This document shows, piece by piece, positions 7,341-48,390 of a stretch of 64,000 nucleotides of DNA. The stretch lies in NCBI GenBank assembly GCA_950295325.1, contig OX485807.1:46052796-46116795 (forward strand). The letters are read 5' to 3'. The DNA comes from Polytrichum commune. Its lineage: Eukaryota > Streptophyta > Polytrichopsida > Polytrichales > Polytrichaceae. The position numbers were made by a program, and so were the translations under genes. The notes beneath the pieces are model-generated. The model was not told the origin of the DNA. It made no database searches and saw only the letters and a list, made by a program, of their open reading frames with translations. Each line of letters begins with the position of its first letter. Position 1 is the stretch's first letter.

Positions 7341-8605
7341 GTGGCGATGGCTACTCTCTCTCTTTCACAACTTTGGTTGTAGTAGGGAGAATTGTTGAGG
7401 TGGAAGGTTCCAGCGGTCAGGTATGGCGTTACCTTACCCCTCCTTGGAATTTCGTAGTGGTGAATGTGCATGAGATGGGTCGTGAAATTTGTGAAGCAAA
7501 AAAAATTTCAATGTAGCACTGGCCCGACGATGTCAAATAGCTCAATGTGGAGCAAGGGAGTGGGAGAATATCAAATAGTTTCGGAAGTCTGAGGGATGAT
7601 GTTGCATAATTTCCAAAACATTGAACTTTGAAATAAGCTCCTGTTGTGAGAGTTGGTAATTCATGCTCCCAATGAGAGCTCTTACACTAAAATTGTCTTT
7701 GCCTTATGGAGCTTGTTGAAGGTTGATCCACCTTGAATTTTAGGTTTTAGATTCTATTTTTTTTGTACATTATACTTGAATCAAGAAGAAGGAGGAGGTG
7801 GGGCACTGAGAAGTGGGGGATGGGGAAGGCATGGAGCAGGCCAAAATGTGGATTGGGTGCTTGTGGTTTTGGGCTACGATTTCTGGCCCCAATCTCTGGC
7901 GTCTCTATCTCCAGGTTTGGTGGACATTCTATGATTGTTGTCTCACTTAACTGGGCAATCTACTCATTGTGAATTTGAGAACAAGAATCCTTGCATTCAT
8001 GCATTTTTTTGTTTACCATCAAAGCCTTCTATATGAAAGATTACCATCACAAATCTGGCATAATTACCTCAATCTGGAATATGTGTTGTCAACTAATTAT
8101 CTGGTGTTAATTCTCAATGGAATACCAGGATGGTTTCGGGAGGTTTAGCAGGAAGCCGATGTTGCACATTGCAGCAAGTTTTGGCGCTGAAACCGAGAGA
8201 GCATTCAAAAAGACTATATAGATCGATCACCTTATTGACAACCTACGAGAAACCGAATATTCAAAATGTGAATGCCACACAGGAAACCTGGGATTGCACA
8301 TCGCCTTTGGCAGGTTTAACAGCAAAAAAACTGTGCCCATCAAGAAGCAGTAGGAAGACATGTTGCATCATCTTCTAGGGCTAACTCTCTGTTTTATGTG
8401 TTATTTTGGGGTCACAGATGGCACAGGTAGTGGCTGAGAACGTCTTAGCTTTCAATGCTCCATTTTGGCTGCGTCTCGCTGCGAGGGCGGGCCAATGCTC
8501 TTCGCATGAGGAGAGAATGAGTTCACCTTCTGATCATACTGTATTGAACTTGACAATAAAGCAATAAAAGAAATGAAAGAAAGACAACTCCAATGTTGCC
8601 ACCGG
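7341..8605. other. Gene-free stretch
   Basis: Open frames at 7763-7972 and 8130-8378 are short and show no domain or splice context that I can defend. I see no RNA gene or transposon end here. Confidence 0.4.
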
Positions 8606-8942
8606 CGTGAATTATGGTGTTGCTTCATCTTCAAGTTGATCTAAGTCTATATGTAATCCTGAAACGGGCATCACGAGAATTAGAGGGCCCCAAAGACTTC
8701 TGCCTCCTTCGAATTGTGAACGCCTTGAACAGGTGAGGATTAGACGGCCTGCACCTATCTCCCTCAAGATCAAGCCCCTAAATTTCTACACTCCTACTAT
8801 GATTGGGTGGACTATAGATGGTAGGGTGCACTGGAAATGAAGTGCTTGGAAGGTCACCCATCCGAGCACTACTCCCGCCTTAGGCAGCTTCATCTCAGAG
8901 TTCCCATGGGATCCAGGTTAAGGCCTTAGGTTTAAGCCACCC
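8606..8942 (-). mobile_element. 5S rRNA-derived repeat, copy 1
   Basis: Read on the minus strand, 8942 down to about 8822 aligns along its whole length to plant 5S rRNA. It starts GGGTGGCTTAAACC, contains GGATCCCATGGGAACTC, then AAGCTGCCTAAGG, GGGAGTAGTGCTCGGATG and GGGTGACC, and ends TGCACCCTACC. The internal promoter blocks of 5S genes (A box, intermediate element, C box) fall in that stretch. It is not a normal 5S gene: the 5' third is diverged and a roughly 215-bp unrelated tail follows, ending near CAACACCATAATTCA. Copies 2 and 3 share head and tail. This fits a 5S-headed SINE or a Cassandra-type LTR (Cassandra elements carry 5S sequence in their LTRs). The homology seems to begin at the 5S start, which favours the SINE reading. 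Confidence 0.85.
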
Positions 8943-9593
8943 TTTGAACTTACAAATTCTGTTACTTGAAGGTGATTTCAGTCCCCATCATCACGTAGTC
9001 ATTGAGTGAACAAATGATCGTTGATGTTTTGAAATGCTGTCATCTCTTTGGATTAGATGGAATTGATATCCATCTCGAAAGAAAGGGATTAATAGTTATT
9101 GGCAGCTGAAGGTTTTTTCCAGCTGGGAATGGTGCTGCCACTGAATCAAAAGCAGTTAGTGTGATCCGGATTCTCCGCATTGATCTCAGGGAGACTCTGG
9201 AAGTATGAGGAACATCGTCCACTGGAACTCTGATGCAGAAGTACATGCTACCAAAAGTGAACCTCCAATATAAACAGAAATACTCACATTTATAAACTTT
9301 GGTTGATGAGAAGTCACATGTGTTTGTTGCTATTTCTGACAGCCCTTATGGCATGCTTTGATGCAGAAAGAGCACGAGGAGCTTGCTAATCAAATTATAA
9401 CAGGACCATATGATCCATCATCTCAGTTATCTACTTATCTTCATGCACTTCCCTTAGCATATCATTACATAACTTCACAATCACTGCAGTCGTACTCCGA
9501 CTGTTGTATATAACGATAAAATATTATCCACCCTCTCACTTATCCACTTCTTGTCATCCACGCTCGTTAACACACCTCACACATATATAAATG
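8943..9593. other. Gene-free stretch
   Basis: I see no supportable feature between the 5S-derived repeat and the TATA element upstream of the GIY-YIG gene. The minus-strand frame at 9040-9246 has no recognisable content. Confidence 0.4.
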
Positions 9594-13747: not shown

Positions 13748-14534
13748 AGGAATAAATTATGGTGTTGCTTTATTTTCAAGTTGGTCTAAGTCTACATTTA
13801 ATCTCGAAATGGACATTGGGAGATTATGAAGGCCTTCAAGATTATTGTCTCCTTTCAAAGGTGAACACCTTGAATGAGCATGGACAAGCTGGTCAACACA
13901 TGTCTCCCCCAAGGGCAAGTCCCTACGTTTCCACATGGTTGGTTGAAAATAAATGGTGCACTCGGATACTCCCACTATGACTGGTTGGATCATATGTGGT
14001 AGGGTGAACTAGGAATCAACACTACAAGAGGAAAATGGGGGTCAAATAGGCATCGGAGGGGCCTCAACTAGTGGATGAAAATGAAGCGTTTCTTACTAAT
14101 TTGATTATCACCCATGGGCCCAGGCAACCAAGAATCTCTCATGAGTAAATCTCATTAGAGCATGAAATCGAAAGATCGGACCTTAAGATAGGCATTCTAG
14201 ACTATTAGGAAGAGTAGGTTCTCCCTGTTCATTGGTTTGGCTAGGCATGCCGTATATTTGGTGTCGATTATCTGAATAATGATGATCTTGTGTCAATTTT
14301 ATGCGTAACACGTCATGTGCCACAAAAGACAAGAAAGAATTTATAGTCATGCAATTTTCTTGGGGGGAGGGGCATTTCATTGAAATTCTCCCAAACTCGA
14401 GGCATGCTACTATAACAGTTTCTCCTTTAGTGGTGCTAGAAGAGGTCACTCATTTGAGTACTGATCTAACCTTAGGCAGCTTAACCTCAAAGTTCTTACG
14501 GGATCCAGGTTAAAGCCTTTAGTTTAAGCCACCC
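13748..14534 (-). mobile_element. 5S rRNA-derived repeat, copy 2, interrupted
   Basis: The head (14534 down to 14433) and the tail (14019 down to about 13748) match copy 1 at 8606-8942. The head includes GGGTGGCTTAAACT and GGATCC, but the C-box area is more diverged (ACTCATTTGAGTACTG read on plus). The tail shares GTTGCTTTATTTTCAAG and TCTAAGTCTACAT with copy 1 and ends near ATAATTTATTCC. A 413-bp CACTA-like insertion separates the two parts inside the 5S-derived segment. The open frames at 13757-13993 are by-products of this repeat. Confidence 0.8.
14020..14432. mobile_element. CACTA-like insertion inside the 5S-derived repeat, 413 bp
   Basis: Aligning copy 2 to copy 1 shows an insertion exactly here. 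Its left end is CACTACAAGAGGAAA, close to the CACTACAAGAAA terminus of plant CACTA (En/Spm) elements. Its right end TTTCTCCTTTAGTG is an imperfect inverted match. The expected 3-bp target duplication is not clean (CAA on the left, GTG on the right), so superfamily assignment is tentative. A minus-strand frame (14183-14449) spans most of it but is unrecognised. Confidence 0.6.
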
Positions 14535-21071: not shown

Positions 21072-23339
21072 AATATAGCATTAAATGCGAATAATCGCCC
21101 AAATAAAATTCGCTGCCTCTCACCACTTGTGTACTCCTCAAATAGAATCAAACTTAATAAAGAACTCAAATTTGTTTAAAATTTAGTGTTGTGGCAAATA
21201 TGGAAAATTCTATCAAAGAACTTGAGTCGATCCCCACTTTTGGTGACTTTTCATTTAACTTTTATGTATTATACATGTTAGTTTCAAATTCGACCTCCCA
21301 ACTATCCACCCAACCATTTAGGGGTTGAATTTCAAGAGGTTTTCGGTCAATAATGGGGCAAATTGAAGGACTATTTTTGTGGTTTAAAATAAGGCAAGAT
21401 CCAGTAATTCAGTGGGTCTTGTACTCTATGAAATGTGAAGAGAATTGACTGTAGAGATTTCCTTACTTTTCTCAACCTTTATGTTTCAAGAGCATATAAA
21501 AAGTTATCATAGAGGCAGGTAATTGTAGTGAACAACATCGTAGAGTAATGTATGGTTCACCACTTCAAGTGCTAAAAGGTACTTTCATATAGGTTACAAT
21601 AAGACATTGGCCAATGCGAAGATGACACGTTTCAAACTTATTCAAAATAAAAGTCAAATGTTGAAGTAGATCACACTCTACGGTAGTATGGAATGTGTGT
21701 TTTGGGATGAAGAAATATGATGAGTTGCACATGAAAGCAAAAAAAGTGGGTAAGAAACACAAAGGGTCCCATCTTCAGCATATTACCAATCCATTGCCAA
21801 GAAGAAAGGAAAAAAAGCCATGTTAGTTTGATGATATATTTTTCCAAAACTACCAGTGTTGTAGTTCTAGACAATGCCAAAAGTAAATAAAAATACACAT
21901 TTAAATCACGGGGGATTACTCAAAATTCCACATTGTAGACTCTAAACTGAAAATACTTTCAAAAATGTACTTGAGGACACATGTGTCCATGTTTTGAATT
22001 GGTTTGCCACATATGAAAGGATTGCAATTGCTTAACGAAGAAACCCTAGTTGCAGGCACAATAATTGCTAAGGAACAACCAAATTGCTTCAATGAGCAAT
22101 CATTTCTTTAGGTGTCAAAGTTATCCAAGATGATTTGTTGGGCAATTGGAGGGGATTTGTTGCATTCTTCAAATATAGCTATTTGCCACTTTGCATGGCC
22201 ATAATCGAGCAAAGCTTGTCAAACTGCTTGGTGGACTTCTAGCACATGCCATTGAATGTGGTTGAAGACCGAATATTTTAATTTACATCAATTTATTCAC
22301 ATAATGATTTTTCCCCAAGTAGAATCAATTCTTGCTAAAATTGCTTAAGATTACGCAATCCAAACTCACACTTAGTTTAAAGGTTGACCATTATGTAACA
22401 ATAGCAGCCACCAACTAGGACTCAATGGATTTCCGATGCCACCAACTCTGCACAACCAAGGCCACGCACGAGTTAGCATGTTTTCTTAGGTAAGCTTAAG
22501 TGCAAAGTGCATGGCATATTACGTCTCCCTACAAGATACCCTAGAGCCCAGTTTTAATAGGGTTTAGAGTTAGGAGTCACCCCGACTCACGGTCTTAGGG
22601 ACATTCCTCGAAATCCCCACAAGCTACTGTTATCACTCACTAGCCTCGAGACTCTATTCATGAGTTTGGGACATGCCCTTTCCGGTGCAAGTTGCTAAGG
22701 AGCCCAAATGGTTCAACTAAGTTTAGTCACACTACAGTAATTATCCCCATTAGTGAGGGAGGGCTAAGTGAGTGTGGGAAATCAATGAAGGTGATATTAA
22801 GTTTTTCCACTATATGAAATTAGTGCCACCAAAAGATCTAGGAAGCTTTGTTCATCATGGCACTATTCACTAAAAATATGATTCATAGCTCAACACTATT
22901 CATCTTGAAACTATTACTTTATGCATATAAATTTTGTTTATCAATCTACAAACACCTTAGAGCACCCACTAATTTTCTTGAAATGTGTGGCAAATGAGCA
23001 TGTATTCTTGAATTTAGTATCACTCAGTAAAAAGTTCAACCCTCACTCATTTTGAGACTTGGCAAAATAGTGTGCGTTTTGGGAATTAGTACCACGTGCA
23101 CTAATTGGGATAATCAATATAGTCCCAAGAGTGTTAGGAGTATGTACATGATACCTACTCATGGCCAAAATTGTGGTTCCAACTCCACACACATTTTTGG
23201 CCATTGGATTGGATTAAGAACTTCATGTCCACTTAGCAATTGTGAATCATAAAGACTATATTCCAATTTCAGAGTTGGAGTTGAGAAAGTAAATTGATAA
23301 CATGTCAAGGTGGATAAATAAACTCATTCTTAAACCTTT
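21072..23339. other. Gene-free stretch
   Basis: AT-rich DNA with scattered short open frames. I see no RNA gene, transposon end or tandem repeat worth calling. Confidence 0.4.
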
Positions 23340-47690: not shown

Positions 47691-48390
47691 CTTTGAGAAC
47701 AAATGGTACACCCAAATACCTCCACTATGGGTGGAACATAGATGTTGAAGTGCACTAAAAACAAAGTGCTAGGTATATCACCCATCCGAGTATTATTCTG
47801 GCCTTAGGCAACTCATGCCCCCTTCCCACTTGATTTTCCAAATAACCAAAGTTTTTCCTAAAACCTGGGTAAAGCTCCCCCGGTTATAGTAGAGGCATCC
47901 GGCTACTGCAATGCACCTACAAGAACTTGCTCCAGAGATTTTCAAGTAGGTTTCAATTGAGTAGCTTTCACATGTGTTCATTGTTTTATTTACCAAGCAA
48001 TGAATGTTGGATAGTTTTTGTCCCGTCCCAAAATGCCTTACTACTCATTTATCTTACCATTGGTTTTTGTTAATGGAGCTCCTCGTGCCCTCGTAGCTAA
48101 GGCTAAAAGCAACCAATCACAAGGGCGGGAGGCAACATTTTTAAAAGTCCTACATTCTTGCCTCAAGTCTAGGTACCAATGGGAGGGTCGGTGCTTGAGG
48201 CTTAAAACCCTCCACCTTTAAACCATGCCACATCATTTGCCAACTAGGCTTTGCATTAGATAATGTCGATGGTGTGAAGGCTGTGTTTTTAAAACCAACT
48301 TTTAGGCTTAGCTAAAGTCAGGTGGGGAGGGGGCATTAACCTCGGAGTTCCCATAGGATCAAACTTAAGACCTTAGGTTTGAGCCACCCA
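47690..48390 (-). mobile_element. 5S rRNA-derived repeat, copy 3, interrupted
   Basis: The segments 47690-47815 and 48339-48390 join to give the same 5S-derived unit as copies 1 and 2. The head on the minus strand starts GGGTGGCTCAAACC, followed by GATCCTATGGGAACTCCGAGG; after the insertion it resumes GCCTAAGGCCAGAATAATAC and CGGATGGGTGATA. The interruption is a 520-bp MITE. Only part of the tail is recognisable. Confidence 0.8.
47816..48335 (+). mobile_element. TIR MITE, TGCCCCCTCCCC family, copy B, inside the 5S-derived repeat
   Basis: 520 bp. Ends TGCCCCCTTCCCACTTGA and TCAGGTGGGGAGGGGGCA. The right flank is TTA (48336-48338) and the left flank TCA (47813-47815). Copy 2 of the 5S repeat has TTA at this point uninterrupted (GGCAGCTTAACCTC), so the left copy has mutated and the target was TTA. 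Confidence 0.93.

Follow-up and report, generated by a model that had tools for sequence, protein, structure and literature searches.

A 5S rRNA-headed repeat family in the moss Polytrichum commune, probably a SINE3-type retroposon

The repeat in the window and its parts

The window analyzed here, a 64-kb stretch of the Polytrichum commune genome (64,000 nucleotides), contains a full-length copy of a dispersed repeat on its minus strand, with a head derived from 5S rRNA and a T-rich 3′ tail. Two further copies lie in the same window, one split by an insert and the other broken. The features are listed below, with the short interspersed element abbreviated to SINE.

8557–8942, minus strand: full-length 5S-headed SINE, with its 5′ end at 8942 and its T-rich 3′ tail reaching 8557 (profile match and flanking direct repeat)
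8822–8942, minus strand: 5S rRNA-derived head (Rfam 5S_rRNA match; consensus head compared with the genome's own 5S)
8883–8894, minus strand: presumably the box A region of the 5S internal promoter
8870–8879, minus strand: presumably the intermediate element (IE) region of the same promoter
8852–8863, minus strand: GGATGGGTGACC, which we take to be the box C region of the promoter
8576–8821, minus strand: body and 3′ end common to full-length copies (27-copy alignment and profile)
8587–8608, minus strand: 3′-terminal hairpin (arms 8600–8608 and 8587–8595; the family consensus folds into a hairpin)
8944–8955, no strand: target-site duplication flanking the head at a distance of one base, TTGTAAGTTCAA
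8544–8556, no strand: target-site duplication after the T-rich tail, TTGTCAAGTTCAA, matching 8944–8955
13752–14534, minus strand: second SINE copy, split, with profile matches at 14534–14433 and 14019–13752
14020–14432, no strand: 413-bp insert that splits the second copy; its inverted ends, CACTACAAGAGGAAA...TTTCTCCTTTAGTG, are CACTA-like
47692–48389, minus strand: third SINE copy, broken, with a head part at 48389–48335 followed by 47815–47692

For the three promoter blocks, the letters were located in the sequence, and the names and places are our assumption. The first copy matched positions 1–400 of a profile of 27 copies over 8942–8576(−) (E = 2.4e-117, the window copy being itself a member of the profile). 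An earlier note on this DNA had described a 337-bp unit at 8606–8942 there. This unit is real and far beyond chance, but its edges were misplaced and its strand is minus: the tail, which had been ended at 8606, continues through the hairpin to approximately 8576 and then as a T-rich run to 8557. The 121-bp length given for the 5S-homologous head was right, as the Rfam 5S_rRNA model was matched over its positions 1–120 at 8942–8823(−) (26.1 bits, E = 0.0064). This score is under the gathering score of 38, and Rfam at gathering scores returned no match in the whole 64-kb window.

The second copy matched profile positions 1–101 (E = 4e-23) and 102–369 (E = 1e-68) on the two sides of its insert. 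This insert, putatively of CACTA type, is probably the relic of a small DNA transposon. The third copy matched positions 1–55 (E = 1e-11) and 52–178 (E = 2e-22) around a 519-bp interruption, and both copies lie outside the 27 copies of the profile. The number of copies proposed earlier, three, was thus recovered with the profile, but only one of them is whole, and the 215-bp tail ascribed to all three is missing from the third, which has no 3′ half. A weak match at 21283–21365(+) to profile positions 107–196 (E = 6e-4) may represent a decayed fourth piece.

Taken one by one, the copies resemble 5S poorly: among 20 loci searched with Rfam, one match (27.7 bits) was obtained at E up to 1. The family consensus was compared with the near-canonical dispersed 5S loci of this genome alone, which are putative 5S genes. 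Its head scored 40.5 against this reference, whereas 500 shuffles had a mean of −14.9 and a maximum of −1.5, and the SINE profile matched the six best 5S loci with E-values of 4.5e-16 to 1.9e-14. Identity to 5S was 56/70 in the core of the head (positions 29–98) and 28/45 in the remainder. The near-canonical loci (L044–L049) are themselves dispersed, and AATATAA lies upstream of the start in five of the six (not L046); in another moss, Funaria, linked rRNA genes have been described (PMC3095306).

Copies, ends and flanks across the genome

The 407.8-Mb assembly consists of 64 contigs, seven of them large (42–78 Mb), a number that would suit Polytrichales (x = 7). Its LEAFY DNA-binding part is closest to PDB 4bhk (FLORICAULA/LEAFY HOMOLOG 1, 201.3 bits), a Physcomitrium protein, ahead of 2vy1 (PROTEIN LEAFY, 180.6 bits) from Arabidopsis and three further chains, in keeping with a moss host. 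A search with the whole unit gave at least 44 matches at 40 or more places (from the best 40 of 2121 candidates), and a search with a 63-nt 3′ piece gave at least 40 matches (from the best 40 of 1165 candidates), two places of which were also in the whole-unit list. Together, the searches identified at least 78 distinct places, and copies are present on all seven large contigs. Among 82 loci fetched for other reasons (151,718 bases, partly overlapping), there were, besides 5S matches, one clear copy at L045, which consists of two pieces, and a weak match at L152 (E = 0.0007); if this sample is typical, the genome would hold a few thousand copies.

For the comparison of copies, 42 sequences were used (39 fetched loci and three window pieces), of which 30 passed the full-length cut. 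The 27-copy profile and the duplication test omit L005 and L007, which share their flanks with the window copy and are its segmental relatives, and L021, which has the flanks of L022. A larger set of 48 copies, spanning profile position 10 or lower to 385 or higher, may include such duplicates. In these 48 copies, the K2P distance to the consensus ranged from 0.095 to 0.207, and because of its median of 0.136, we judge the family to be old. In one copy (L074), a piece of approximately 50 bp (profile positions 232–282) occurs as a tandem repeat.

In the 30 full-length sequences, homology begins with the start of 5S, GGGTGGCTTAAACCC or a variant form. The 48-copy set includes 38, 5, and 3 copies that start at profile positions 1, 2, and 3, respectively, position 1 having been placed by us at the 5S start. 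When the upstream flanks of the 27 full-length copies were compared among themselves, and likewise the downstream flanks, not a single pair matched with E ≤ 1e-5. The earlier proposal that homology among the copies begins at the 5S start therefore holds, with 46 of 48 copies beginning at positions 1–3 and 27 unrelated upstream flanks. The element starts with GGGTGG and ends in T-rich sequence.

Direct repeats abutting the head were scored as target duplications when they reached a score of 6.5 and lay no more than 3 nt from the head. By this measure, 15 of the 27 copies had a duplication, compared with 37 of 702 mismatched flank pairs. The duplications were mostly 7–14 bp, with one longer example in T-rich sequence. 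In a second set of 38 loci picked by their 3′ ends, the frequency was 8/38 against 86/1406 control pairs, and with a strict cut it was 6/38 against 13/1406. Since these loci were chosen by the 3′ end, their fixed 3′ ends are no evidence. All eight duplications occurred among the 20 loci with a complete 5′ end (8/20), and none abutted the 18 loci in which it was incomplete. Both 5′ truncation at insertion and later deletion may fit these 18 copies, the latter being considered because none of them has an abutting duplication.

These observations bear on whether the copies are mobile in their own right. Isolated 5S-like loci do occur in this genome, and the window locus has segmental relatives with the same flanks, L005 and L007, as would be expected if the copies were retropseudogenes of 5S or products of segmental duplication, with no mobility of their own. 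However, the copies have in common a non-5S part of approximately 270 nt, they are spread over the seven large contigs, and they have unrelated flanks and target duplications, which makes such an origin very improbable.

The same holds for Cassandra or another 5S-carrying terminal-repeat retrotransposon in miniature (TRIM), in which case the copies would be solo long terminal repeats (LTRs) or LTR pairs moved by the machinery of LTR retrotransposons. This explanation would account for a plant repeat that is dispersed, about as long as an LTR, and contains 5S sequence, and there are same-strand copy pairs at L034 (identity of 90.6% over 159 nt) and at L029 (identity of 87.1% over 163 nt), whose members resemble each other more closely than do the 27 aligned copies (mean identity 70.2%, maximum 77.8%, with 85 nt of flank included). 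Yet the members of these pairs are unequal in extent (profile positions 2–251 and 51–399 at L034, and 1–400 and 228–400 at L029), as is expected of local duplicates. Direct repeats between upstream and downstream flanks were found at 3 of 27 loci, L029 (50 nt), L031 (118 nt), and L038 (141 and 73 nt), but the 27 flanks share no sequence with one another on either side. The copies begin at the 5S start and finish T-rich, and TG...CA ends were not found in them. LTR elements as a rule make a 5-bp target duplication, whereas the duplications here are long and variable and no 5-bp duplication was found. Words resembling a primer-binding site (PBS), searched with up to two mismatches to what we take to be the Met-tRNA motif, numbered 12 in 11 of the 27 loci, counting the first word per word type and locus; they were scattered and reached about the reckoned chance number. 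The arrangement named earlier as the mark of ordinary Cassandra, TG...CA LTR ends upstream of the 5S part with paired copies, was looked for and did not appear, and the impression from the window that there is neither a PBS nor a second LTR was borne out by the flank comparisons, which gave no LTR pair, and by the chance-level PBS-like words. We regard the LTR-based explanation as scarcely credible.

The repeat is instead read here as a SINE3-type retroposon of approximately 390 bp, headed by 5S and, in this model, mobilized by a long interspersed element (LINE); we put the probability of this reading at about 0.9. Its architecture is a 5S head, a body of approximately 210 bp, a 3′ hairpin, and then a pyrimidine- or T-rich tail. 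Roughly half of the full-length copies have long, variable target duplications, the flanks are unrelated, and the copies are many and dispersed. The plant 5S-headed SINE that had been raised as a possibility is thus supported by ends at the 5S start, unrelated flanks, variable duplications, and a 3′ hairpin and T-rich tail resembling those of a resident LINE.

The 3′ hairpin, the candidate LINE partner and other 5S joins

The last 46 nt of the SINE consensus fold as a hairpin (−10 kcal/mol, z = −2.81). A similar hairpin occupies the corresponding position in a LINE 3′ family found through the tail of the 5S-like locus L053, in the 5S-like locus L055, and in a young SINE with a tRNA head, with z-values of −3.4 for the LINE relic, −2.6 for L055, and −5.2 for the tRNA-headed SINE, the LINE relic and the tRNA-headed SINE being composites made by eye. 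Sixteen ends, picked and typed by hand, were compared pair by pair. At three stem pairs, both bases differ between ends with pairing preserved. Pair 4 was C-G in 9 ends and T-A in 7; pair 5 was C-G in 8, T-A in 5, and T-G in 2; and pair 9 was G-C in 9, A-T in 6, and C-G in 1. Mismatches occurred at pair 6 in 8 ends (G-G in 7, A-C in 1) and at pair 7 in 4 (A-C). We rely on this between-family comparison because many changes within the SINE family look like CpG decay; covariation within the family was dropped as support on account of the many stem changes of this kind.

A search with the L053 tail recovered the LINE 3′ family (best 40 of 347 candidates), and the tail was traced upstream to a LINE relic, L150. 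Pfam found no families in four broken pieces of L150. Its RNase-H-like piece gave at least 150 matches (the best 150 of 2222 candidates), with open frames of up to 2422 amino acids, and the domains RVT_1 (E = 2.8e-32) and RNase_H (E = 1.6e-8) were each found in a different copy. Among nine LINE 3′ ends, the word ATTCAYGCCGGT was exact in seven and had one change in two, and the hairpin followed by a T-rich tail was present in all nine. When the SINE was compared with the LINE ends, the consensus of which omits L158 and L162, which nearly duplicate L155 and L154, the score was 14.0 with the tails, reached by 3 of 2000 dinucleotide shuffles, and 10.0 without them, reached by 156 of 2000. The SINE appears to share the word ATTCAYGCCGGT, the position of its hairpin, and its T-rich tail with the LINE that has reverse transcriptase (RT) and RNase H, and this resident LINE is the likely mobilizer of the SINE, as judged from the similar ends. 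The LINE itself (L154–L163) is abundant, encodes RT and RNase H in frames of more than 2400 amino acids, and has copies as similar as L155 and L158 (99.0% over 1403 nt); it may still be active.

Mobilization of the 5S-headed SINE by a LINE other than this one would fit the large size of the resident LINE set, in which a zf-RVT search gave at least 141 matches (among the best 150 of 322 candidates) besides the 150 or more of the RNase-H fragment search, and would also fit the end similarity between SINE and LINE, which is short and partly tail-driven. It is made less likely by the hairpin position, the word ATTCAYGCCGGT (exact in 7/9), and the T-rich tail shared with the RT/RNase-H LINE. The 18 zf-RVT 3′ parts compared, which may not reach the element ends, contained nothing that matched the SINE consensus with E ≤ 1. 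The zf-RVT elements, with 18 3′ parts that had neither a SINE match nor clear ends, were set aside as partner.

The heads of T-ending plant SINEs are tRNA, and one tRNA-headed SINE of this genome (L139–L146 and L050) is approximately 355 bp long and young, with at least 41 matches of 91–100% identity (from the best 40 of 1473 candidates) and target duplications that can be recognized by eye at such loci as L140 and L142–L145. ARAGORN found no tRNA gene in 11 loci. A body shared between the 5S-headed and tRNA-headed SINEs was considered and rejected, the best stretch being 22 nt at 86% with a score of 21.0, below the shuffle maximum of 24.5. The 3′ end of the 5S-headed consensus also scored inside the shuffles against L053 (10.5, maximum 15.0), L055 (12.0, maximum 13.5), and the tRNA-headed SINE (9.5, maximum 13.5).

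In the proposed cycle, RNA polymerase III would transcribe the SINE from the 5S internal promoter in its head, the terminal hairpin and U-rich end of the RNA would bind the reverse transcriptase of the resident LINE, and target-primed reverse transcription would insert a new copy. The consensus has TTTT at position 165, and 40 of the 48 copies contain TTTT (10 of them TTTTT) somewhere before their final 25 nt. Such an internal TTTT could possibly be an early stop for polymerase III, which would count against the SINE model. The head would go back to a fusion of 5S RNA with a retroelement 3′ part, probably by template switching on the LINE enzyme.

Possible joins of this kind were seen among 15 further 5S-like loci fetched for comparison. 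At L050, a 5S sequence is followed directly by a whole tRNA-headed SINE; at L053, it is followed by approximately 140 nt of a LINE 3′ end; and at L055, it is followed by approximately 50 nt with a LINE-type hairpin, the whole being flanked on both sides by an 11-bp repeat, TTCTTCAAAAT, 5 nt from the head. A search with the L055 tail returned only L055 (1 of 1 candidate), so that this is a single locus and was rejected as a repeat family. L054 has an exact 12-bp flanking repeat 9 nt from the head. Of ten further 5S loci searched for exact flanking repeats of at least 8 bases, L050, L052, L053, L056, L058, L059, L061, and L062 had none. L050, L053, and L055 are perhaps joins of 5S RNA with retroelement RNA, produced by repeated captures. 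Since L050 and L053 have no exact flanking repeat of at least 8 bases, they may be chance neighbors, in which a SINE or a LINE end landed beside a 5S copy. A LINE enzyme that repeatedly joins 5S RNA to LINE or SINE 3′ parts (L053, L055, L050), one such join having given rise to the family in the window, is a tentative reading that we consider less likely than not; with it goes the idea that Cassandra could have obtained its 5S part from plant SINE3 elements of this sort, a source long supposed. We hold the reading lower because, among L050, L053, and L055, an exact flanking repeat is found at L055 only. Chimeras of 5S and LINE-1 have been reported in mammals (PMC13174262), where the 5S part is typically antisense, whereas it is in sense in the candidate moss joins L050, L053, and L055.

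Other 5S-like loci lie in different contexts. L057, L060, and L063 contain a 5S-like dimer with a spacing of approximately 184 bp inside a longer repeat. Copies of this dimer-bearing repeat (L057, L060, L063, and L064) are 94–97% alike, with 1.24 kb shared by L057 and L063 and approximately 0.2 kb at L064. L059 and L061 carry a 5S relic within a 1.15-kb repeat that is 95.7% identical between them. At L052 and L056, 5S is followed by a common, 71%-alike tail ending in (CTT)n or (TTC)n, and these are perhaps a further 5S-headed family.

Comparison with known 5S-related and T-ending elements

SINE3 elements are known from vertebrates, zebrafish among them, and from some insects (Tribolium and Lepidoptera), and their partner LINEs belong to the CR1, I, and RTE clades (PMC7245038). 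The moss family resembles them in its 5S head with an internal promoter region, its unrelated body, its apparently LINE-like 3′ end, and its target duplications, and differs in its host, a land plant. The 5S-related SINEs of Aspergillus fumigatus (PMC5063351) are likewise non-animal, with a fungal host. In the largely open-access literature searched, we found no 5S-headed SINE from a land plant; PMC3095306 places 5S in SINE3 "including plants" and cites there its own Cassandra reference.

Like Cassandra, the moss SINE is a small, non-coding plant retroelement that would use a 5S promoter. Cassandra TRIMs carry the 5S inside their LTRs, together with a Met-tRNA PBS and a polypurine tract (PMC10853983, PMC10886601), whereas no LTR pair or PBS was found in the moss SINE. 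PMC4717578 reports that no TRIMs were found in Physcomitrella, and in a word search, PMC10853983 on Cassandra mentioned neither moss, bryophyte, nor Selaginella. With ZmSINE2, a T-ending plant SINE with an L1-type partner, LINE1-1_ZM, and a stringent-type 3′ hairpin with compensatory changes (PMC3747384), the moss SINE has in common that it ends in T-rich sequence and bears a hairpin of this kind; unlike it, the moss SINE has a 5S head and a candidate LINE that carries RT and RNase H.

These likenesses bear on two questions. The likely LINE partner and the T-rich hairpin end are relevant to what moves T-ending plant SINEs, a question raised in PMC3747384. The origin of Cassandra has been speculated to be a SINE3 that landed in an LTR (PMC10886601); this requires SINE3s in plants, for which the moss SINE is a candidate. 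Within the plant literature consulted, the use of 5S is that of Cassandra.
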